From Candidatus Krumholzibacteriota bacterium (lineage in GTDB: Bacteria; Krumholzibacteriota; Krumholzibacteriia; JAJRXK01): a DNA stretch of 64,000 bases. Made by a program: the position numbers and the translations under genes. The DNA lies in the NCBI GenBank assembly GCA_024276305.1, contig JAJRXK010000062.1:1-64000 (forward strand). Reading direction: 5' to 3'. A model generated the notes under the pieces. The model saw only the letters and a program-made list of their open reading frames with translations, ran no database searches and was not told where the DNA came from. This document shows positions 12,564-48,431 of the stretch, one piece after another (position 1 is the stretch's first letter; the number at the start of each line of letters is the position of its first letter).

Positions 12564-13849
12564 TCACTCATCGAAGCCATGGGTGGTCTGCAGATATCGA
12601 TCCGACTCCGCGGACACGTCATGGACCTCGTCGACGATGCGGTTGGCCTCGCCCCCGTCGTCGATGCCATCGAGATCTCGCGACCGTTCCCGCTGCTCAC
12701 GCAGCGCCTCGAATTGCGCGATCTCCGCTGCGGTCATCGACCCCGCCTCCTTCTCGAAGAGGAATTCCCCGTCGGAGTACTCGACCGTCACCAGATCACC
12801 GCGGCGAATCTGACCACTGCAGATGAGATGACTCAAGGGGGTCACGAGATGGGCCTCGAGAGCGCGCTGCAGAGGCCTCGCTCCGAACTTGGGATCCGTA
12901 CCCACCCGTACGAGCTCGTCCTTGGCCGACTGCTGGAGTTGCAACAGGAAGGGCTCGGTGCAATCGATGCTCCGGATGTGCAGATTCGAGACGAGATTCT
13001 CCAGAATACGGTAGAGGTGATCCTCCTTGAGCGTCTGGTAGGTGATCAGCTCGTCGAAACGGTTGAGGAATTCGTAGGGGAAGATCTTGCGAGCCTCGCG
13101 CTGCGCGGCCTCGTCGAGATCACGATCCACCTGATCGGTCTCGAATCCGCCCTGGAAACCGATTCCCTCGGTGGAAAGGTGGATTCCCATCGAACGGCTC
13201 CCGACATTCGTGGTCAGTACGATGATCGATCGAGTGAAGTCCACTTCCTCGTTGTTGCCCAAGACCAACACGCCGTCTTCGAGGATCCCCAACAGCAGAT
13301 TCCACAACTTGGGGTGCGCCTTTTCGACCTCGTCGAAGAGGACGAGTGAAACGTATTTCTCGTCGTCGGGAGACAGCCGAGCCACCTTCGAAAGTTGCTC
13401 GTTGAACATCCCCCGCCCCTCCTCGAGGGCATGTTTGTGGTGGCGCTCGAGATTCTCCTGTCCGAGCAGAGGCTTGATCTCGCCCCCCACGTAGCCGGGG
13501 GGGCTGCCCAGCAGCTTGGAGAGGTTGTAGTGCGCCGAGTATTCCTGACAATTGATGCGAGTGAAGGCCCGGCGGCTGCCGAAGAGAGCCTCCGCCAGAC
13601 AGCGACCGTCTCCGTCTTTCCCACGCCGGTCGGGCCCATCAGCATCAGAGTGAGAATGGGGCTCTCAGGATCGCCGACGCCGGCCAGCACCCGACTGAAG
13701 GAGTTGGTGACGGCTTCGATGGCATCGGGCTGGCCAACGACCATGTGCTCCATGAGCTGTCGAAACTGGGTGATCTGTGGATTCCGGGTGTTGGGGTCCA
13801 ACCGGACCCTCTCGCTGTCTCGGAGTTCGCAGAGCTGGGGCAGAGACAT
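12564..13849 (-). pseudogene. Single-AAA Clp/Hsp100-type ATPase (ClpA/ClpB D2-like), disrupted by a 1-base frameshift
   Basis: Two frames together encode about 428 residues of a single AAA+ module of the ClpA/ClpB D2 class. The N-terminal frame (ATG at 13849, AAGGA 7 bases upstream) reads MSLPQLCELRDSERVRLDP and MVVGQPDAIEAVTN, and reaches Walker A GPTGVGKTETV. Homology then continues in another frame: CLAEALFGSRRAFTRINCQE, LGSPPGYVGGE, Walker B LVLFDEVEKAH, sensor 1 VLTTNVGS, arginine-finger region FLNRFDE and sensor 2 GARPLQRALEAH. The shift lies near 13601-13606; one base appears to be missing. All ATPase motifs are present and no other decay is seen, so a sequencing error is as likely as a true pseudogene. 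No N-domain or D1 ring is encoded, which is unusual for a ClpB. Confidence 0.88.
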
Positions 13850-14055
13850 GTGAGATCCTTGCGAGGAGGCCGTGACCGGCACTCGTGAGGGTTCTGACGC
13901 ACGCCCGAGGGTAGTGTGCCCCGATGGAGAGGGCCGAGGACCAAGAGGCCCAGGATCCTGTTGCCATGCAAGGTATCGACCGAATTCCCACGGACTTGAG
14001 AGGGTAGATGCTGCCGTGGAGGGACGCTCGGACCCAGGGCTGGAACTACGAGAAA

Positions 14056-14081
14056 GGGCCATCCCTCACGAGGAATGGCCC
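14056..14081 (-). terminator. Probable terminator of the 22.8-14.1 kb leftward unit
   Basis: GGGCCAT (14056-14062) pairs with ATGGCCC (14075-14081), with further pairing inside the loop. Reading leftward the stem is followed by TTTCTCG, a short U-rich tail. It lies 26 bases beyond the stop of the 5'-nucleotidase gene, the last gene of the leftward unit. Confidence 0.65.
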
Positions 14082-14106
14082 ACCATCATGAGGACTCCGA
14101 TCGACT

Positions 14107-15795
14107 TCAGTTGGGAGAGGCCAGACGCAGATAATCCGCCTGCTCTCCGCCCTCCTCCTCGCGGTAGCGATCGTCGGCCACGAAGCGGACCGGCGAGTTC
14201 TGCCGGAGATAGCGGGCAACTGCGTCCCTCGTGACCACCTCCGTGAACTCGATGTCATCCTCGTCCAGGGTGGTGAGCAGATTGTAGCCACTATTGCCTT
14301 CGAGCAGGTAGTCGGTGGTCACCACCCGGTAGATGCGATTCGGGTCCAGAGGCTGTCCTCCGATCTCGCATTGGAGGATCCTCGATCCTCGCTCCGCCTT
14401 GGGATCCGCCACGATCCGAGCCCCGCTCTGGTAGAGGCCTCCGCTCCGGGAACTCGCCTTGAGTTCGAAGATGTCTCGGAGCATCGAACCCCGCACTCGC
14501 AGGACTACCAGAGTGTTGCCGAAGGGCAAGAGCTCCTGCAGGTCACGCAATCGAATGTCGCCGGCCGAGATGTCGGTGCGCAATCCCCCGGTGTTGGTGA
14601 AGGCCAGGTCCGCATCGAAGGCCGCCCGCATGCACTCGGTGACGAAATTGCCCATGGGGTTGTTGGACCGTCCCTGACGATTCAGGTTGGTCAGCGTCCG
14701 TCCCACGACCTCGCTGAGCTGCGCCTCGACGTGTTGGACGTAGGGATCGAGGATGGCGTCCATCTCGGGATCGGGCCAATACTGATCCTCGAAGAGCGAG
14801 ATCAAAGTGCGATCACGCTCGGGCATTTCGTAACCCACGACCGTTCCAGTGGCACGATCGATCTCCAGAGTCACATTGCCGACCGCAGTGCCCCGAGCGT
14901 AGGGCTCGAAGAAGGTGACGTGAGTATAGGGGTCCACCCAGGGCTCGTTATAACCCTGGTGGGTGTGTCCCCCGAACATCACTGGAATCTCGGGAAGCGC
15001 GTGCGCCAGTTCGAGTCCACTGGCGGCATGCTCGAAGAAGTCCGGATCGGTTCGGGCCTCTTCCTGAACTTCCTCCCACTCCTCGTCGAAATTGGAACGA
15101 TGCGGCAGGCCCTCGTGCACCACCAGGAACACGACATCGCAGTTCTTCTCTTCCTTGAGGATGCGCGCGTACTTGCGCGCCTGGGGGGCAATCGGTACGA
15201 ATTCGATCCCCCGAATGTTCTCCTCGAAGGCCATGTGGGCCGTCCCCGTGGTGATGGCACCGATGACCCCAATGCGCAAGCCCTGTCGTTCGAAGATGCG
15301 ATAGGGTTCCACCCAATCCACGAGTTCGCCGGTGCCCTTCTTCATCGTGTTGCAGCTCACCATGAGCTGGTCGAGAGAACGGGAGAAGTCACGGGCAGTC
15401 TGCCATCCCTTGTCGAATTCGTGGTTCCCCATGGCCACGAAATCGAAGTGAAGGGCGTTGTAATACTCGGTGACGACCTTTCCCTCGGTGAGCGTCCCCA
15501 CCGGCGATCCCTGCCAACAATCCCCCGCGTCGAGGAGCAGGGGAGCGACTCCCTCTTCGGCCTCGAGCCGGGCGGTCACCTTCTTGATGTAGGTCGCAGC
15601 GCTCGCGGCTCCCCCGATGGGCGGCGGAAAGTTGGGGTTCATCCATGTCGCCGGAAACTTGCCCACATAACCGTGGATGTCCGCTGTGAACAGGATGTGC
15701 AACCGAACCACGGAGTCATCCTCGGCTGCTCGCACCCCGGAGAAGGAACCGCCTTGGATCAGGATCGCAAGTAGAAGAATGGAGAGCTGCTTCAT
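14107..15795 (-). CDS. Secreted 5'-nucleotidase / UshA-like metallophosphoesterase
   Basis: This family hydrolyses extracellular or periplasmic nucleotides (and sometimes UDP-sugars) to nucleosides and phosphate. The 562-aa product has a signal peptide (MKQLSILLLAILIQGG, cleavage near VRAAE). The dinuclear metal site motifs are FTADIHGYVG, LLLDAGDCWQGSP, AMGNHEFDKGW and MFGGHTHQGY. The C-terminal substrate domain has FVTECMRAAFDADLAFTNTG and VVTTDYLLEGNSGYN. It is the last gene of a five-gene leftward unit of exported proteins, 25 bases downstream of a FadL-like barrel. The position suggests that it processes nucleotides released outside the cell. Substrate specificity is inferred from the family only. 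Confidence 0.92.
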   Translation of the reverse strand: MKQLSILLLAILIQGGSFSGVRAAEDDSVVRLHILFTADIHGYVGKFPATWMNPNFPPPIGGAASAATYIKKVTARLEAEEGVAPLLLDAGDCWQGSPVGTLTEGKVVTEYYNALHFDFVAMGNHEFDKGWQTARDFSRSLDQLMVSCNTMKKGTGELVDWVEPYRIFERQGLRIGVIGAITTGTAHMAFEENIRGIEFVPIAPQARKYARILKEEKNCDVVFLVVHEGLPHRSNFDEEWEEVQEEARTDPDFFEHAASGLELAHALPEIPVMFGGHTHQGYNEPWVDPYTHVTFFEPYARGTAVGNVTLEIDRATGTVVGYEMPERDRTLISLFEDQYWPDPEMDAILDPYVQHVEAQLSEVVGRTLTNLNRQGRSNNPMGNFVTECMRAAFDADLAFTNTGGLRTDISAGDIRLRDLQELLPFGNTLVVLRVRGSMLRDIFELKASSRSGGLYQSGARIVADPKAERGSRILQCEIGGQPLDPNRIYRVVTTDYLLEGNSGYNLLTTLDEDDIEFTEVVTRDAVARYLRQNSPVRFVADDRYREEEGGEQADYLRLASPN

Positions 15796-15820
15796 GATTC
15801 CTCCGTCGCCGGATCGGCCT

Positions 15821-17119
15821 CTAGAAATCGCGGGACACGCCCAGGGTCAGCCGAATACCGCTGTCTTCGACCTTGGGAGTGACTCCCGGATTGGGAACGC
15901 CAGAGGCTCCCGAACCGAAGAGGAAATCCTGGCGCGTGGTCTGGCGCGTGTACTGGCCCGTGATGTCGACGTGGAGGTCCTCGAAGGCATAGCCGGTCCC
16001 GGCCGAGAACACCACCCGGTCGCTGTCTCGGTCCGCATAGTTTTCTACGAATCGGAAGCCAAAACGTGCCGGCATCCCGTTGTAGAAGAGGTGCTCCACC
16101 CCGAGGCGGAAGTCCCAGGTGTTACGCAATCCCAAATTGGTCACAGTACTGGCGGCCTCCGACACTGCGTCGGCCCAACTGTCATTGAGTTTCTCCCAAA
16201 AACGACGCCGCGCTTCGATGGTGAACACGGTGCGGAGCTTGTTCTGCGGCCGGTAAGCGAATCCAAAAGCCACGGTCGTCGGATACTCGATTTCGTAGTC
16301 TCCCAGGGCCGGCGCTCCCGCGTCCGGCACGAAGGCGGTACCGTCGAAGGCGCGCTGCGAGTGGGCCCCACTCACCTTGACCGGGCCCTCCACGCTCACT
16401 CCCAACTCCAAGCGCTCGTATCCCTCCACGTGCAGACCCACGGTCCAACCCCAACCCGCGAGGTCTCTCTTGAAGCGATTCCGAGTTGGAGTGCCGGTCA
16501 CCGGAATCTCTTCCCGCACCGAAGTGTAGGTGCCAAAGTAGCGATGCGCGGCCAGGCCCAAGTGGACCGATGGCAGAACCTCTCGGCCGTAGCCAAAGCT
16601 CAAAGAGCGCAGACGACCGTCCGACGCGATGCGATTGAACTGCTCGAGGTCGTCGGTGGTCGTGGACCGTACGTCCTCCCGATAGTCGAAGTCCGTGTCA
16701 TAGCGCTCGAAGAGCCCGACCGACAGCGCTCCTTGGCCCTCTCCTGGCAAGCGAAACACCAGGCCACCTTGACCCGAAGCGTAAGAATTGCGGTTGAGCG
16801 CATAGGCGGTCTCGGCCACGAAATCGTCGAAGGTGTCGTAGAGAGGAACGAATCGGTCCTCGTTCGCCTCTCGGATCCCCACCTGGAAGTCCAGATGAGC
16901 TTTGCCCTCGAAGGTCGCGAGCAGGGCGGGATTCTGCACCATCGCCGACGATCCCATGAAGGTCGCCACTCCAGCGAGACCCATGGCCAGAGACCGAGCC
17001 GAGGCTCCGTCTTCGGGACTGCCGTAACGCGCGTCGAGAGCCGTATCGGCCATCGCCGCGGTCGCCACGGTCAAGGCGAGAAGACTGATTGCAAGAACGT
17101 TGAGCTTGTTCATCGTCAT
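15821..17119 (-). CDS. Outer-membrane beta-barrel, PorV/FadL-like
   Basis: The 432-aa product has a signal peptide (NVLAISLLALTVATAAMA). It then shows the PorV/UPF0164 type N-terminus, DGASARSLAMGLAGVATFMG and SAMVQNPALLAT. Long alternating beta strands follow, ending in a terminal aromatic residue (LGVSRDF), typical of outer-membrane barrels. The AMG...NPA pattern is shared with the barrel two genes upstream, so they are paralogues. In the FCB group such proteins can act as shuttle or anchor proteins for type IX-like secretion or as small-molecule channels. The gene lies 11 bases downstream of the HhH barrel gene in the same unit. The transported substrate is unknown. Confidence 0.82.
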   Translation of the reverse strand: MTMNKLNVLAISLLALTVATAAMADTALDARYGSPEDGASARSLAMGLAGVATFMGSSAMVQNPALLATFEGKAHLDFQVGIREANEDRFVPLYDTFDDFVAETAYALNRNSYASGQGGLVFRLPGEGQGALSVGLFERYDTDFDYREDVRSTTTDDLEQFNRIASDGRLRSLSFGYGREVLPSVHLGLAAHRYFGTYTSVREEIPVTGTPTRNRFKRDLAGWGWTVGLHVEGYERLELGVSVEGPVKVSGAHSQRAFDGTAFVPDAGAPALGDYEIEYPTTVAFGFAYRPQNKLRTVFTIEARRRFWEKLNDSWADAVSEAASTVTNLGLRNTWDFRLGVEHLFYNGMPARFGFRFVENYADRDSDRVVFSAGTGYAFEDLHVDITGQYTRQTTRQDFLFGSGASGVPNPGVTPKVEDSGIRLTLGVSRDF

Positions 17120-17130
17120 GGATCCGTTCC

Positions 17131-19638
17131 TCAGAACGTGTAATCGAGTTGGAGGCGGAAGGCGGTCTCGTTGCCACGAACCTCATCGCCGATCGGTACG
17201 CTCCGACCGTAGACGATGTTGGTTCCGCTGAGCGAATTGTCATGGGACATCTTGAATCGCAGGAGCAGATTGGGGCTCAACCGGCTGCGGATGAGCAACC
17301 AGTTCCTGAAGCCCTTGCCGTCGAGGAGCACGAACTCGTTGTCCTCGAAATTCCAGAGAAAGCCGTCGTAGACCAAGGACGAGAACATCACCATCAGGTT
17401 CCGATTCACATTGTGGCGGAACTGGGCTTGCAGGGCGTGCCCGGGGCTTCCCGCTTGGGGCAGCGGACTGTCTCCGCCCGGATTGTTCGGCGGCTCGGAA
17501 AGCCGGGGCCGCGGCGCAAACTGAGTGCTGGTAGCACTGTAGAGGAAACGCATCTCGTCGTAGGAACTCAATCGAAGCCGGGCTTCGAGGCGAGTGTCCC
17601 AGCTCTTGAAGGCCCGCACATCGTCGGTGATCTGTTCGGCCCGGCTGCTGAAGCGCTGACGGAGACGGAACCGCAGAGGGAAGATCGGCTGATACTCCAT
17701 GCGAAGGGTGTACCGTCGCATGTCCTGGCCATCCGATACTCGGGTCCATTGATCGAAGTCGAGGCCGGTGATCGTGAGACGCCGCGAGATGCGATAACGG
17801 GAGGTGATGAAGAGCCCTCGTTCGGGTTTCATCTGCGGCGTATTCACTTCGAGATAACTGAGCAATTCGTTGTTCAGCCGGAAGGGGTCGCCGACGAGAG
17901 TCTGCTCGTAACGAGTATCATTACTGAAGGCACGCGCATAGGGATTGTCGAATCCGATTCCGTAATTGCGGTAGAGAGCGAAGAGATTGAAGTCTCCGTA
18001 CTGCACATAACCATTCAACACGAAGGCCTCGGGTGCGGCCGAAAACACCCCTTCCAAGAAGTCGTTCTTCTTGCTGGCGTCGAGCTTGGCATACTCGCCC
18101 TGGAGTGCCACGTTCTCGTACACGGCCTGGAATTCCGCTCCCACCACCCGGCGAAAATTCCCGATTCCGGCCGACGAGTAATCTCGGAAGAGTTCTGAGT
18201 CCCGAGCCTGAAGCAAATCGGGGCGGGTGAACAGAGCCGTGGTCTGGGGATCGAAGGGCTTGTCGTAGCGCGCTTCGTAACCGGACACCCCGACATAGGT
18301 TCCGGGAAAGAGCGAGAACTTGAGGTTGCCGCCGCGGATCGTCTCTTCGAAGGCGTCGCGCCGAATGCTCCCCCCGAAGGTGCCGTTGTTCGCGTCGAGC
18401 ACCTCCTGCTCGAAACGGGGAGTCAAGAGGATGTAACGGTTGATGCTGTCCGGCTGACCGTCCCCATCGAGATCGCCGTTCATCACCGCATCCTTGCGAT
18501 CCCGGCTGACGAATCCGACCGCGTGAAGGCGTCCCAGATCGAATTCCAGCGCCGCGCCCCGCAGCGCGAACTCATCGGTGCGGGAGAGGTCGCCAAAGAC
18601 GGTCTGGGGTCGCTTGTTCCAGCCATAACCCGTCTTGCGAGGCAGGAAGAAGTCGGTGTTGTCCATCACCAGACCCTGCCCAAAAGCGACTCGGTAGTTG
18701 CCGAGGATGACCTTGATCCTCGACCCCCAAGAACCCAGCTTCCGACGGTCGCTGCGGTAGGAGACATATCCCTTCACTGTCTCCGTCAGGTCCGCCTCGC
18801 CCACCTGACGATGGGTCAGCACTCCTGCCTTCAGCGTCCTCCCGAGCCTCAGACGCAGCTTGGTGAGAACGGCCGGATTGGGAGATGTGAGCACCTCGGC
18901 TCCCTGCTGGAAGAACTGTCCCCCCAGGAGAATCTCCTGCTCGTCACCCGCCCGGTTGTAGGGCGTGTTGAAGGTCAGGTATTCGAGATCTCCGTGAATC
19001 TCACGCTTCTGCGACGGCGGCGAATAGACGATGAAGTCCCGCAGATTCCGGTAACCCCAATAGCTCAGGCCTGGAGCGTTGCGCAGTTGACGATCCCCTT
19101 CGATGCGTCCCAGGCGATCCCGATTGCGCAGGATCGCCACCGCATCCACCGGCGACACGTTCTGGTAGCTCATGAGCTCGTAGATGGTCATGTCATTGAT
19201 GTCCGAGGGCTCGCGCAACTGGTCGAGGAGCTCGTCGGCCAACTCTTCGCTCGCACCCTCCTGGCTCAGGAAGCGCTCGACCTGCCGAAACCCTTTGTCG
19301 TAGCGCTGCAAGGCGTCGTCGCGGGCCTCCGGAGGCAAGGTGGCCACCAAAGACCGCAGGCGGGCCATGACCTCGGGAGTCATGCCCTTCACCTTTCGCA
19401 ATTCGAAGAAGTTCTCGAAGTAGCCCTGGTACTCGCGGTATTCGACGATGGCCTCCGCCAGGTCCCGGGAGATCGGTAGCCTGGAGATCTCCCCCAGCGA
19501 GGCCGAGTTGAGGTCAAGGCGCTCCTCCACCGCGACCACTGGCTCCGCCGACACCGAATCGGAGACCCGGAGCAGCACGGAACCCGCGAGGGCAACCGCG
19601 ATGGTTGCAAGACGAAGGGCGCGGGCCGGGATGCTCAC
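17131..19638 (-). CDS. Helix-hairpin-helix domain protein fused to a large outer-membrane beta-barrel
   Basis: The 835-aa product has a signal segment (ALRLATIAVALAGSVLLRV). ComEA-like HhH regions follow: LDLNSASLGEISRLPISRDL / YREYQGYFENFFELRKVKGM (about 39-100) and DINDMTIYELMSYQNVSPVD / LRNAPGLSYWGYRNLRDFI (about 150-212). The remaining 600 residues are amphipathic beta strands ending in LQLDYTF, an outer-membrane barrel signature. HhH motifs of this type bind DNA non-specifically in ComEA. The start is a GTG at 19638 that overlaps the stop of the preceding gene (GTGA) and has AAAGGAG 8 bases upstream. The function is not established. A surface DNA receptor or translocation pore is possible, but the HhH could also be a protein contact. 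Confidence 0.83.
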   Translation of the reverse strand: MSIPARALRLATIAVALAGSVLLRVSDSVSAEPVVAVEERLDLNSASLGEISRLPISRDLAEAIVEYREYQGYFENFFELRKVKGMTPEVMARLRSLVATLPPEARDDALQRYDKGFRQVERFLSQEGASEELADELLDQLREPSDINDMTIYELMSYQNVSPVDAVAILRNRDRLGRIEGDRQLRNAPGLSYWGYRNLRDFIVYSPPSQKREIHGDLEYLTFNTPYNRAGDEQEILLGGQFFQQGAEVLTSPNPAVLTKLRLRLGRTLKAGVLTHRQVGEADLTETVKGYVSYRSDRRKLGSWGSRIKVILGNYRVAFGQGLVMDNTDFFLPRKTGYGWNKRPQTVFGDLSRTDEFALRGAALEFDLGRLHAVGFVSRDRKDAVMNGDLDGDGQPDSINRYILLTPRFEQEVLDANNGTFGGSIRRDAFEETIRGGNLKFSLFPGTYVGVSGYEARYDKPFDPQTTALFTRPDLLQARDSELFRDYSSAGIGNFRRVVGAEFQAVYENVALQGEYAKLDASKKNDFLEGVFSAAPEAFVLNGYVQYGDFNLFALYRNYGIGFDNPYARAFSNDTRYEQTLVGDPFRLNNELLSYLEVNTPQMKPERGLFITSRYRISRRLTITGLDFDQWTRVSDGQDMRRYTLRMEYQPIFPLRFRLRQRFSSRAEQITDDVRAFKSWDTRLEARLRLSSYDEMRFLYSATSTQFAPRPRLSEPPNNPGGDSPLPQAGSPGHALQAQFRHNVNRNLMVMFSSLVYDGFLWNFEDNEFVLLDGKGFRNWLLIRSRLSPNLLLRFKMSHDNSLSGTNIVYGRSVPIGDEVRGNETAFRLQLDYTF

Positions 19639-20543
19639 TCGCCTTCTCCTTTCGGCCCGAAGCGCACGGTCAGACCGAACTGATGCGACTCGTCGAGAGT
19701 GCCTCCTCCGGTGGAGAAGCCATAGTCGAGGCTGAGTAGCTGCGGCAACCGCACTCCGAAGCCCCCCGTGAGCTTGGCCGGATCCGTCTCGATCCCCGCT
19801 CGCAGCTGGAAGACCTCCGTGATCGCCCATTCGGCCCCTCCGTGGAAACGGAATTCCTGGCCGAGCTCACTGCGAATGTCAAAAGCAGTGATCACTCCGT
19901 CGAAGGGCTCGTAGGACAGGCCCGCGGCAACGAGCTGCCGCAACTCCTCCTGATCCTCTCCGATCGTGGGATTGTTGAGGTTGCGGGTGTAGAAACCGGC
20001 TCGAGTCCGGTCGTAGAGCTTGACGCTCGCACCCACGTCCAATCCCCAGGTCCACGCCGACCCCGGAGTCTCTCCGCCGACGCTCCGCCCGAAGTCCAAG
20101 TTGTAGAAGTTCAGCGCCCACCCGATCTGGGCAGTGGAGGTGGCGTCTTCGTAGAGCGAGAAACCGTGAGCGAAAGTGAGAGTCTGTTCGCGGGTGAGGT
20201 TGGCGTTCTTGAAGTCCACGCTCCAGTGCCGAAACCCGACCGAAATCCCTCCTCCATTGCCGGGGAGCGGAATCACCGCGGCCCAACCGTTGAGGCGAAA
20301 CGCATCGACCCCATTGGGTTCGACGGTCGAAGATCCCAGCTCGACTTCATCGATCTGCGCCAGCAGAGCGGGGTTCTGGGTGAAACTCCAGACGTCACCG
20401 GATACGGCAACCGAAGCCTCTCCCATCGCCCGGGCTCGTGGACTGAGGGTCTGGCCCTCGAAAGCAGCCTGTGAGGTTCCGATGCCGGTGCCGAGCACCA
20501 GTCCCAGGACCGTAGCGACCGCGATGTTGCGTGTTGTCGTCAT
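19635..20543 (-). CDS. PorV/PorQ-like outer-membrane protein
   Basis: The 302-aa product has a signal peptide (NIAVATVLGLVLGTGIGT) and the PorV-family pattern LSPRARAMGEASVAVSGDVW and FTQNPALLAQ. A beta-barrel of about 12-14 strands follows, closing with FGLTVRFG. PorV/PorQ proteins hold or shuttle exported cargo at the outer membrane in type IX secretion. Here the upstream neighbour has a FlgD-like C-terminal domain that could be cargo. Of two in-frame ATGs, 20543 is preferred because GAGGAGG lies 6-7 bases upstream; 20549 is too close. It is translationally coupled to the HhH barrel. Confidence 0.8.
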   Translation of the reverse strand: MTTTRNIAVATVLGLVLGTGIGTSQAAFEGQTLSPRARAMGEASVAVSGDVWSFTQNPALLAQIDEVELGSSTVEPNGVDAFRLNGWAAVIPLPGNGGGISVGFRHWSVDFKNANLTREQTLTFAHGFSLYEDATSTAQIGWALNFYNLDFGRSVGGETPGSAWTWGLDVGASVKLYDRTRAGFYTRNLNNPTIGEDQEELRQLVAAGLSYEPFDGVITAFDIRSELGQEFRFHGGAEWAITEVFQLRAGIETDPAKLTGGFGVRLPQLLSLDYGFSTGGGTLDESHQFGLTVRFGPKGEGE

Positions 20544-20554
20544 CGTCATCCTCC

Positions 20555-22816
20555 TCACCGCTGCATCCGTGCGGCCACGACGACCGGCATCTGGAGTTCC
20601 TGGGTCTTGCCGGTCAGCCGGTCCACCACTCGCATGTGAGCTATGTAGGTGCCGGCGGGAACGCGCTCGGCGAATTCGTCGCGCCCGTCCCACTCCACGG
20701 TATGCGTCTGGTCGGAGAAGTCGGTTCCGGGAGATTCGAATCGGCTGTCGTAGAGTGTCGCCTTCAACCGCCCTTGGAGGTCGAAGATTCGCAGTAGCAA
20801 CTCGCCACCGAAACTTCCACCCGAGGCGATATTGCTCGAAACGCCCATGGTGATCGGATAGGTCTCACCCTCCCGGGGCAGGAAGGTCCGCGCGGGTCCG
20901 TCGAGCACGAAATCGACGGCGGGGGCATTGGACACTCGCACCGTCTGTGGCGCGGTCATTCGATTGCCCAACTGATCCGCGACACCCCGCACCTCAACCT
21001 CCCAATCATCAATGGTCTCGATGATCCGATCGAGGTTGAGCAGAACCTGCGAAGCCTGGTCGACGAATGCCGCAACCACCCCGGCGGTCGTGTTCGCATT
21101 GCGGACCGTGTAGTTGCCGGGATTGGTGGCGCTGGTCTCTTCGACCGCCTCGTTGAAGCGAAGGGTGACCTGATCGGCGCGGCTCAGATAGGCCATGAGC
21201 AACCGGGGGGGAGATTGATCCGAGAAGGGCGCGGTCTGAATGTCGCTGACGTTGCCCACGAGAACCTGGAAGGTCTGCTGGAATTGGCTCCCGGCTCCAC
21301 GGGCATAGATCTTCTGCCCGGTGCTGAAGGTCAGCCCGAGAGTGTCCGCCACCCGCACCGTGAGGGTCTGTCCACTCCCATCGGAGACCGTGTAGTTCGC
21401 GGCTCCACCCGCGCTGCTCTGCGAGATGATATCTCCCTCGACCTCGATGTAGGTGCCTTCCCAATCCGAACTATTGGCCTGCTTCAGGGTGAGCTTGGTC
21501 GCGGGGACCGGCGGATTGCCGGTGCTGAGCACCTGCACTCCGGTCACATTGACCAATTCCACCGTGCTGAAGAAGAGATCCACCGTGCCGGTGAGTCGAA
21601 CCTTGGCCGTGATATCCTGAAGGGCGGGAACATCCGACCCGTTGCCGAAGAGATTGATTCCCCGTCCGGAGTCGTCCTGGATATAGCCACTGGTCGTCGA
21701 CCCACGGTAATTGGTGGGGATGTAGACCTGCCCTTCCACCGTGACCGTCTGCCCCTGGAATCCGCTCACGTCGGACTGGATGTCCGCAATCGGGGTGATC
21801 GTTCCTCCGCCACCACCGCCACCACCGCCGCCTCCGCTGGATTCGATGTCGGTGGGCAGACCCACGTTGATCTGGAAATCGCTCCCGAACTGTCCTCCTG
21901 CCCCCCGAGCAGTCACGGTGGCTCCGTCGGCGATCACTGCGACCCCCAAGGCGTCGACCACCCGGACCACGACTCCGCCCGATCCGTCGTCCACGATGTA
22001 GTTGCGGCCCGGTCCCCCGACGGAGGAACTCTGCACCGTTCCGGTCACCTCGATGAAGGTGCCCTCCCAGTCCGACGAGTTGGCCGCGGCAGTGGTGATC
22101 TGCTGTGGGCTCAGCTTCGAATTGCCGGTGCTGAGCGTCTGCACCGAAGTGATGTTCGTCAGCTCCACCGTGCTGAAGAAGAGCGACACCGTCCCGGTGA
22201 CCCGCACGACCGCGGTCAGGTCCCGTAGAGCGGGAACGTCCGCTTCGCTGCCGAATACGTTGATCCCCCGACCTGATCCATCCTGGATGTAGCCGCTGAT
22301 CGTCGTGCCCCGGTAATTCGAGGGGATGTAGACCTGGCCTTCGACCGTGACCATCTGCCCGTCGAAGCCGGCCGGATCCGCCTGAATGGTCGCGATCGGG
22401 GTCACGCTTCCGGTGAAGGGTGCATCGAAGGTCACCGCGCTCAAGGAACTGCCCGGCCCTCCCCCGAGGGCTTGGATCCCCTGACTGCGCAAGGTGTAGT
22501 TCACACCTCCGGTGAGGGCGCTGCCCAGAGTCAACGTTGCGGTCGGTCCAGCCACCGCGACCGAAGAGACCGCGAAGGAGTTGGTCGGCGCGTCACTCTG
22601 AAAGACTTGATAGCGGGTCGTCACCGATGCGCTGACCGGGTCGATGTCCTGGTCGAAGGTGACCGCGACGGTGAGTTCGTCGCTCGCGGTGACCGAAGTC
22701 ACCGCAGGCTGCGCGACCGCGAAGGCCGGCAGGAGCAACAGCCCCCACAGCAGTGCGGCGTTTAGAGCTCGGAGCGGAGAGAACAAGACAGGTCTCCTGT
22801 TCGAAGCGGTTGGCAA
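20555..22816 (-). CDS. Exported multi-domain protein: Ig-like, two duplicated OB-fold modules, polyglycine linker, FlgD-like C-terminal domain
   Basis: The 753-aa product begins with a signal peptide (ALLWGLLLLPAFAVAQ). Domains in order are an SbsA/Big_5-like Ig (about 38-135); module A of two OB-folds (139-326); 11 consecutive glycines (328-338); module B (341-528), closely matching A; a second Ig-like domain (535-630); and a FlgD-like Ig (about 645-753), with FDLQGRLKATLYD and VEWDGRDEFAERVPAGTYIA. OB-folds of this layout (VTVEGQVYIP, GYIQDGSGRGINVFG) occur in exported nucleases and nucleic-acid-binding proteins such as the YhcR/DUF5689 class. No nuclease motif is seen. It is the first gene of the leftward unit, 11 bases ahead of the PorV-like gene. 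Surface attachment through the C-terminal domain is inferred. Confidence 0.85.
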   Translation of the reverse strand: MPTASNRRPVLFSPLRALNAALLWGLLLLPAFAVAQPAVTSVTASDELTVAVTFDQDIDPVSASVTTRYQVFQSDAPTNSFAVSSVAVAGPTATLTLGSALTGGVNYTLRSQGIQALGGGPGSSLSAVTFDAPFTGSVTPIATIQADPAGFDGQMVTVEGQVYIPSNYRGTTISGYIQDGSGRGINVFGSEADVPALRDLTAVVRVTGTVSLFFSTVELTNITSVQTLSTGNSKLSPQQITTAAANSSDWEGTFIEVTGTVQSSSVGGPGRNYIVDDGSGGVVVRVVDALGVAVIADGATVTARGAGGQFGSDFQINVGLPTDIESSGGGGGGGGGGGTITPIADIQSDVSGFQGQTVTVEGQVYIPTNYRGSTTSGYIQDDSGRGINLFGNGSDVPALQDITAKVRLTGTVDLFFSTVELVNVTGVQVLSTGNPPVPATKLTLKQANSSDWEGTYIEVEGDIISQSSAGGAANYTVSDGSGQTLTVRVADTLGLTFSTGQKIYARGAGSQFQQTFQVLVGNVSDIQTAPFSDQSPPRLLMAYLSRADQVTLRFNEAVEETSATNPGNYTVRNANTTAGVVAAFVDQASQVLLNLDRIIETIDDWEVEVRGVADQLGNRMTAPQTVRVSNAPAVDFVLDGPARTFLPREGETYPITMGVSSNIASGGSFGGELLLRIFDLQGRLKATLYDSRFESPGTDFSDQTHTVEWDGRDEFAERVPAGTYIAHMRVVDRLTGKTQELQMPVVVAARMQR
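21233..21796 (-). repeat. OB-fold module copy B of an intragenic tandem duplication
   Basis: This copy encodes residues about 341-528. High similarity to copy A throughout, at protein level and visibly in the DNA, indicates a relatively recent duplication or continued gene conversion. Confidence 0.85.
21839..22402 (-). repeat. OB-fold module copy A of an intragenic tandem duplication
   Basis: This copy encodes residues about 139-326 of the exported OB-fold protein. It aligns end to end with the copy at 21233-21796, sharing for example VTVEGQVYIP, SGYIQD, SGRGIN, LFFSTVEL, NSSDWEGT and ARGAG. The two copies are separated by a polyglycine-coding tract. Confidence 0.85.
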
Positions 22817-47150: not shown

Positions 47151-48431
47151 ATGAACAAGCCAACGAGTCTTGTGGCGCTTCTGTTCATCGCAGGAGTCAC
47201 TCTCCTCGCTCGACCAAGTCACGCCGAGGAAGAGGCGCCGACCTATGACATGGAGTTCCGGACCACGCCCATCGACGACATCCTTCGCGTGCTCGCCGAC
47301 CGATACCAGGTCAATATTGCCATCAATGGGAAGATCGGAGAGACAGTCAGCGTCAACTTTTCCGGGATGAGAGTGGAGGAGGCCCTCGACGTACTTCTCG
47401 AAGGGAGTCAGTGGACTTGGCGCTTCGAAGGCCAGAACGGACAGGTCTATCGCATTCTTCCCTCGAGCACCCCCACCACCGAGATCTTCGAGCTGGCCTT
47501 CACCGAGGCCAGCGCCCTCGCTGCGGTCATCACCGCTCAGGTCCCCGACGTGACAGTGAACCCCGAATCCCACAGCAACAGCCTGCTGGTTTCGGGCTCT
47601 CTTGAGGACGTGCGAGAAGTCGGCTGGCTGGTGGATACGGTGGACCGCTATCGTGCGCAGGTGAGCATCCGCGCGGAGATGGTCGAGGTCACCCTCAACG
47701 AAGACGACACCCGCGGCGTCGACCTTTCGGCGATCCTCGGCGGCACGGACGGTGACGGAGCCCTCTCGACAAGCTTCTCCGATGGAAACGAGACCTCCAC
47801 TCTGGACGTACACACCCTCCAGGGCGACTTCGACATCCGAGGAGTGGTGGCCGCGCTGAACGAGCAGCGGGAGTCACGTCTTCTGAGCAGTCCCACCATT
47901 ACGACTCTGGACAATCAACCCGCAAAGATCCACGTGGGAGAGCGGGTTCCCTACCAACGCGCCACCATCGAAACCCAGACCGGCGCCACCCTGGCGGAGG
48001 TCGAATTCGTGGACGTGGGAGTGAAGCTCGAGGTCACCCCAACCATCTCCGAAGACGAAATGCTCTACCTGTCGATCCACAGCGAAGTGAGCGAGGTTCT
48101 CGAACAGAGTGTGCAGAATGTCCCCCGCATCGGAACCCGTGAGGCGGACACCCGGGTCATGGTTCGTGCGGGTGATACCGTGGTGATCGGCGGATTGATC
48201 AAGGACAACTACGCCACGGTGGTCAAGAAGGTCCCCTTCCTCGGAGACATTCCTCTCCTGGGCCGACTCTTCCGGCGCGAAACCCTCAAATCGGAGAAGA
48301 CGGAGTTCTTGGTCTTCATTCGCCCGCTCCTCCTTCACGATCCGTCCCAAATGCGACCGGGAAGCGCCGCCCAGGACACCCGGCGTCGCTTCCGCGAGGC
48401 CCCAGAGTTGATCGGTGCCACCAAGCCCTGA
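47151..48431 (+). CDS. Secretin, PilQ/GspD-family outer-membrane channel
   Basis: Secretins form the gated outer-membrane channel of T2SS and T4P. The 426-aa product has a signal peptide (SLVALLFIAGVTLLARPSHA) and an STN/N0-like domain (YDMEFRTTPIDDILRVLADR). One N1-like domain follows (AVITAQVPDVTVNPESHSNS), then the secretin core (LLSSPTITTLDNQPAKIHVG, VEFVDVGVKLEVTPTISEDE, DTVVIGGLIKDN, PFLGDIPLLGRLFRRE). It is short for the family (often 600-750 aa), with few N-domains and no AMIN domain. The second ATG (47151), preceded by AGGATGGGA, is preferred over 47145. It is the last gene of the operon. Confidence 0.93.
   Translation: MNKPTSLVALLFIAGVTLLARPSHAEEEAPTYDMEFRTTPIDDILRVLADRYQVNIAINGKIGETVSVNFSGMRVEEALDVLLEGSQWTWRFEGQNGQVYRILPSSTPTTEIFELAFTEASALAAVITAQVPDVTVNPESHSNSLLVSGSLEDVREVGWLVDTVDRYRAQVSIRAEMVEVTLNEDDTRGVDLSAILGGTDGDGALSTSFSDGNETSTLDVHTLQGDFDIRGVVAALNEQRESRLLSSPTITTLDNQPAKIHVGERVPYQRATIETQTGATLAEVEFVDVGVKLEVTPTISEDEMLYLSIHSEVSEVLEQSVQNVPRIGTREADTRVMVRAGDTVVIGGLIKDNYATVVKKVPFLGDIPLLGRLFRRETLKSEKTEFLVFIRPLLLHDPSQMRPGSAAQDTRRRFREAPELIGATKP

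Follow-up and report, generated by a model that had tools for sequence, protein, structure and literature searches.

A co-inherited surface protein, PorV-like barrel and helix-hairpin-helix barrel as candidates for nucleic-acid capture at the outer membrane of Krumholzibacteriota and WOR-3

An open question about FCB-group bacteria is how DNA or RNA passes their outer membrane without a classical pilus secretin. Here we ask whether a five-gene locus of a Candidatus Krumholzibacteriota bacterium bears on it. The window, the whole stretch of 64,000 nucleotides analysed here, lies on contig C46 of a 3.5 Mb genome (G000; 119 contigs, 97.9% complete). The original prediction had read the five genes as a system that binds extracellular nucleic acid. 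Based on our results, the locus may encode an outer-membrane complex capturing extracellular nucleic acid, a reading that we hold with about as much belief as doubt. The locus supplies defined, co-inherited candidates in two uncultured phyla, namely an OB-fold surface protein, a PorV paralogue and a helix-hairpin-helix (HhH) barrel. This surface assembly is previously undescribed, and we found no further papers on the trio.

The five leftward genes (Table 1) are spaced by 5, -4, 11 and 25 bases, so the tight packing first described, with gaps of 25 bases or less, is confirmed. The PorV-like gene and the HhH-barrel gene overlap by GTGA at 19635-19638. Improved start codons are TTG 22786 for the OB gene, which stands behind AGGAG, ATG 20549 for the PorV-like gene and GTG 19638 for the HhH barrel. 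The signal peptides of the five products were assessed by eye. Beyond the fifth gene, an AAA (ClpB-like) gene at 12564-14062 (-) is read in two frames, with the break just past Walker A (GPTGVGKT). Since its reading is split, this gene is frameshifted or mis-assembled; in relatives it forms a single frame, with 495 aa in G003 and 466 aa in G002.

Table 1. Features of the locus and of related WOR-3 proteins.
Feature	Position	Strand	Basis
Surface protein (gene 1)	20555..22786	-	Pfam/NCBIfam domains, AlphaFold2 OB model, CTD profile
Tandem double-OB modules of the surface protein	21845-22405 and 21239-21799	-	AlphaFold2 model
Big_5 Ig-like domain	in the surface protein	-	over cut-off
Further Ig-like domain	surface protein, between OB modules and CTD		
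FlgD-like specialised C-terminal domain (CTD), ending PVVVAARMQR	20558-20872	-	profile from window protein and relatives
PorV1, dedicated PorV/PorQ-family outer-membrane barrel	19635..20549	-	family profile, PDB match, synteny
Large HhH outer-membrane barrel, ~24 predicted strands	17131..19638	-	HHH_3 and predicted structure
FadL-family barrel (gene D), nearest BamG/TodX	15821..17119	-	profile matches
Exported UshA-type 5'-nucleotidase/metallophosphatase (gene E)	14107..15795	-	Metallophos and 5_nucleotid_C, PDB match
UshA-HhH fusions (WOR-3)	L206:7755-9473, L207:7338-9146, L210:8081-9748		

The order of surface protein, PorV1, HhH barrel, FadL and UshA is found in 21 of 21 Krumholzibacteriota loci examined, including one (L038) in which the contig end cuts UshA. 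Most neighbors in these loci overlap or lie less than 60 bases apart, except at a metallo-beta-lactamase (MBL) insertion in G002 and G003. On every related contig of sufficient length the AAA gene follows downstream, and many loci have Mrp on the upstream side. The order is also kept in part of WOR-3/Caldifarciminota. With all 20 related loci retaining it at ~29-55% protein identity, and a second phylum as well, we regard it as not due to chance, and the expected co-occurrence in relatives is borne out.

The HhH barrel occurs in 41 of 80 Krumholzibacteriota genomes, which belong to two families, f1 (3/4) and f5 (38/38). In the other six families none was found, save one weak ComEA-like match, and the barrel is missing from G001, a genome of the same genus as that of the window. 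In the WOR-3-containing phylum labelled Caldifarciminota, 71 of 147 genomes carry it (E <= 1e-30). In a tree of 62 barrels, those of Krumholzibacteriota form one fully supported group, a pattern that fits vertical descent following an ancient split.

We notice that the five genes do not persist equally. The PorV1 gene is the direct neighbor of the HhH-barrel gene in 57 of 62 loci. Among 41 WOR-3 loci, PorV1 precedes the barrel in 36, while an adjacent OB-CTD gene is seen in 15, FadL in 17 and UshA in 13. Some WOR-3 lineages (such as L181, L182 and L190) keep the PorV1-barrel pair alone amid housekeeping genes, and one lineage (L192-L196) retains the barrel without the others. These reduced lineages indicate that PorV1 and the barrel are the core, with the other genes accessory or unlinked. 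The co-inherited core is a trio of surface protein, PorV-like protein and HhH barrel; UshA, FadL and the nucleases are accessories that a locus can do without. Thus the five-gene system as originally drawn is a real conserved unit, but two of its members, UshA and FadL, lie outside the core.

The C-terminal domain of the surface protein explains why an unlinked gene can be counted in this trio. The FlgD-like domain claimed at first is supported by a profile built from the window protein and its relatives. The window protein scores 15.9 bits against FlgD_ig, for which the cut-off is 27; its WOR-3 orthologues exceed that cut-off, and Por_Secre_tail stays below its own. The specialised CTD adds a further conserved end to the FlgD-like part (PVVVATRL and PIIVSTKLK in relatives). 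In most of these genomes its profile also picks up generic CTD proteins by the dozen, up to ~63 bits. Each of 11 barrel-bearing genomes, however, has one outstanding full-length match of 70-125 bits, with the next best at 45-63, and the barrel-less G001 has no outstanding match to the profile. In six WOR-3 genomes (G103, G111, G154, G155, G164 and G169), none of which contributed to the profile, gene 1 is unlinked from the barrel; in G155 the barrel contig stops just upstream of PorV1, and the call rests on the partner being on another contig. The unlinked specialised-CTD protein carries tandem OB modules, of DUF5689 type, in all six. None were seen in the generic-CTD proteins examined, over the part inside the fetched loci (~500 residues). 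This pairing of specialised CTD and OB modules in the unlinked genomes is the strongest evidence that surface protein, PorV1 and barrel form one unit.

PorV1 itself scores 54.6 bits against the PorV/PorQ family NF033709, under the curated cut-off of 90, and its best PDB match is PorV 6h3i, a weak one (E 0.0097). Ten of ten PorV1 orthologues match PorV_fam at E<=1e-3. SprA (TIGR04189) is over cut-off in G000 and in every one of the 11 relatives searched, as well as in two WOR-3 genomes. Since SprA is present, export of the CTD protein by a type IX secretion system (T9SS) and docking on PorV1 would be the natural model.

What the surface protein may bind is suggested by its OB modules. The OB folds and FlgD-like end of the window protein fall under curated profile cut-offs, and an AlphaFold2 model of the double-OB repeat (187 aa) shows two OB barrels with a pLDDT of 88.6, in agreement with the tandem OB folds proposed for it. 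All top 50 folds from a Foldseek comparison with the PDB are OB proteins, nearly all of them nucleic-acid binders. The nearest are HIN-200 (IFI16, p202), Teb1, RPA, telomere-end protein and AsnRS, at a TM of ~0.30-0.47; these values are low and the OB fold is a generic one, which counts against a nucleic-acid reading. Relatives of the surface protein match DUF5689 and an OB nucleic-acid-binding family; the window protein has no direct match to DUF5689 (PF18942), and two unlinked counterparts are over cut-off (L233 47 bits, L237 50.7 bits). In family f5, lamin-tail-domain (LTD) repeats replace the OB modules and the same C-terminal domain is retained. This swap leaves another polymer as a possible ligand. 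The modules were also expected to be basic, an expectation that the data contradict in part. By net charge count, which is not a measure of surface electrostatics, the OB modules range from -8 to -13, with -2 and -1 for the two HhH regions of the barrel.

The N-terminus of the barrel contains HHH_3 in two stretches (E 1.3e-16; residues ~42-100 and ~148-205), followed in the predicted structure by ~24 strands at moderate confidence (pLDDT 71, pTM 0.68). As to membership of a known barrel family, Foldseek against the PDB returned generic large barrels alone (FimD, SlpA, MtrB and receptors), with TM <= 0.33 by query length. The ComEA-like HhH of the original prediction is present as a domain, with degenerate DNA-binding features. 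In both phyla, the first hairpin reads LPI.. versus LPGIG in ComEA, and none of the inspected barrel proteins has the DNA-binding GxG there. At the second hairpin, GIG is usually replaced by GMT, GVT, GVD or similar, with exceptions such as L200 (GVG) and L202 (GIG). The ComEA of G000 itself has both hairpins intact and is arginine-rich. Because the barrel hairpins are degenerate and slightly acidic, unlike this ComEA, direct DNA binding by the HhH regions is doubtful. We also observed a second, shorter HhH-barrel family (~600 aa) in L214 (~13106-15154 on G000 contig C2), L208, L209 and L211-L213. In G000 it comes after a protein with a lamin-tail-like region and a FlgD-like end.

The accessory genes encode a barrel and enzymes. 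Profile matches support both FadL/PorV-like barrels and the UshA-type nucleotidase as first described. The closest NCBIfam family to gene D is BamG (NF053685, 62.8 bits versus a cut-off of 250), and BamG is among its PDB matches. Gene E exceeds the cut-offs of Metallophos (36.3 bits) and 5_nucleotid_C (126.9 bits), stays below that of the UshA equivalog (172 of 600 bits) and best matches Nucleotidase 3ivd in the PDB (E 1.5e-46). The adjacent nuclease that the original prediction looked for in relatives has likely counterparts. In G002 and G003 the inserted gene between FadL and UshA encodes a lipoprotein-like MBL whose best PDB matches are ComEC domains. Seven WOR-3 loci have one or two short exported PLD genes at the same place, with endonuclease Nuc 1byr as best PDB match and NucT 6ehi matched too. 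By sequence similarity, these inserted MBL and PLD proteins are likely nucleases. In other WOR-3 genomes, one protein joins a UshA-type metallophosphatase to a C-terminal canonical ComEA-like HhH with intact GIG hairpins (Table 1). In L171 (4074-5420) and L172 (14171-15490), the gene directly after UshA encodes a secreted PHP-domain-like protein that bears a T9SS-like CTD, and the next gene is again PorV-like.

The original prediction saw no nuclease motif in the five genes and expected a partner nuclease. Pfam gives no catalytic nuclease domain in the surface protein, and the ExeM/NucH-type profile is matched partially (27 of 300 bits). No partner was found in G000 as a stand-alone PLD or ComEC-type MBL nuclease. 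The PLD and ComEC matches there are a single full-length ComEC and a PLD protein with two domains, the size of a cardiolipin synthase, and we rejected both as a hidden partner of these two types.

Computation shows a co-inherited trio in a set order, the folds of its parts, and nuclease-type genes close by in relatives. How the surface protein is exported, whether the parts form a complex that binds and transports nucleic acid, and to what end, we infer as follows. The type IX system would be the most likely exporter of the tandem-OB surface protein, whose specialised CTD would dock on the dedicated PorV1. PorV1 would sit beside the large HhH barrel, a putative conduit or receptor, in which the periplasmic HhH repeats may act as a plug or protein-docking element. 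UshA, together with the ComEC-type MBL lipoprotein or Nuc/NucT-type PLD of relatives, could cut the polymer to nucleosides and phosphate; alternatively, these enzymes may trim it during import. Nucleic acid as the ligand is supported by the OB fold, the nuclease-type neighbors and Riemerella genetics, and it is weakened by the acidic OB modules, the degenerate HhH and the OB-to-LTD swap. The UshA-HhH fusions of other WOR-3 genomes also favor the proposed complex; against it stand the separate PilQ, ComEA and ComEC of G000, the failure to find a partner nuclease of PLD or stand-alone MBL type there, and a barrel model of moderate quality with generic matches. More tentatively, and with less confidence than in capture itself, we propose an FCB-group nucleic-acid import machine. 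It would combine a T9SS-exported tandem-OB receptor, held on a dedicated PorV paralogue by a CTD of its own type, with an HhH-barrel conduit and interchangeable nucleases. By homology or analogy, it would correspond to the step, as yet unexplained, at which DNA enters through the outer membrane during transformation in Bacteroidota.

The end use may be nutrition or DNA uptake, and we keep both since G000 has ComEA, type IV pilus PilQ and full-length ComEC. A rather unlikely alternative narrows this to natural transformation, with the trio as an outer-membrane DNA-uptake apparatus equivalent to a DUF5689-protein/barrel pair of Riemerella anatipestifer, feeding ComEA/ComEC, and with the phosphoesterases as accessories. 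Those are the only tested neighbors of this kind; markerless deletion of either the DUF5689 gene or the adjacent barrel gene abolished natural transformation, which also requires a separate HhH protein (PMC8459023). In some WOR-3 lineages the core persists although UshA, FadL and nucleases are missing from the locus, which fits this alternative as well and argues that degradation is not the core job. Within Krumholzibacteriota, only families that have a full-length ComEC carry the barrel, and f3, f4, f6, f7 and f8 have short ComEC matches without the C-terminal metallo-beta-lactamase part. This link, however, involves few families, and in WOR-3 short and full ComEC both occur with and without the barrel, so we do not take ComEC co-occurrence as main evidence. 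Moreover, G000 already has ComEA, and both it and most barrel-bearing relatives already have PilQ. The presence of PilQ excludes, for G000, the barrel as a PilQ replacement. A secretin-type match (PilQ profile, below cut-off) also occurs in the window at 47793-48332 (+).

The PLD superfamily contains phospholipases, and UshA-type enzymes accept many phosphoesters. With a FadL/TodX-like gene in the locus and OB modules that are acidic and replaceable by LTD, the assembly could instead serve other phosphoesters or lipids, its FadL barrels, PLD and UshA phosphatases releasing and importing products from phospholipids or organic phosphates while OB or LTD bind other polymers. We consider this improbable, as the PLD proteins are nearest to Nuc, with NucT matched, the MBL is nearest to ComEC in sequence, and tandem OB of this shape is closest to DNA binders. 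An equally small probability falls to a machine that displays or assembles one surface protein, as BamA-BamG-BamH or SprA-PorV do, with the HhH barrel and PorV1 exporting or holding the CTD protein and importing nothing; the one-to-one co-inheritance of specialised CTD, PorV1 and barrel even across the OB-to-LTD swap and the BamG likeness of gene D favor it, but it leaves the repeated linkage with exported phosphodiesterases and nucleotidases unexplained.

Capture of nucleic acid, our preferred reading, can be compared with several known systems. ExeM-type proteins, which also carry LTD, resemble the locus, as do NucH and B. subtilis YhcR, in having OB modules on a secreted protein and a nucleotidase nearby; here, in contrast, the surface protein has no nuclease domain and the functions lie on separate genes. 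The barrel shares with ComEA the HHH_3 tandem helix-hairpin-helix domain, but its HhH is attached to a barrel, has lost the hairpin glycines and is acidic. The PorV-family barrel, the FlgD-like CTD and SprA in the genome are like the T9SS, whereas the CTD has a conserved extra C-terminal stretch, and the dedicated PorV paralogue lies below the family cut-off. We know of no T9SS that has an HhH barrel as a part. The Bacteroidota BAM (BamA-BamG-BamH; PMC12611786, PMC12578637) likewise joins a large barrel, a FadL-family partner, to which gene D is near, and a surface protein. The present locus, however, has no BamA, its partner barrel is HhH-linked, and gene D remains far under the BamG cut-off.

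A further likeness is to Riemerella, whose paper is the only literature on DUF5689 that we found. RA0C_RS04920/RA0C_RS04915 encode a DUF5689 surface protein beside a predicted outer-membrane barrel (PMC8459023), and this DUF5689 is the tandem-OB family to which relatives of gene 1 also show matches. The pair differs in its other extra domains and in a barrel that carries a carboxypeptidase-regulatory-like domain, not HhH; no PorV or UshA neighbors are described, and the likeness is drawn from descriptions, not sequences. With a candidate trio, a specialised CTD through which one substrate is matched to a single PorV, and this link to Riemerella transformation genes, the question of nucleic-acid entry at the outer membrane becomes directly testable.
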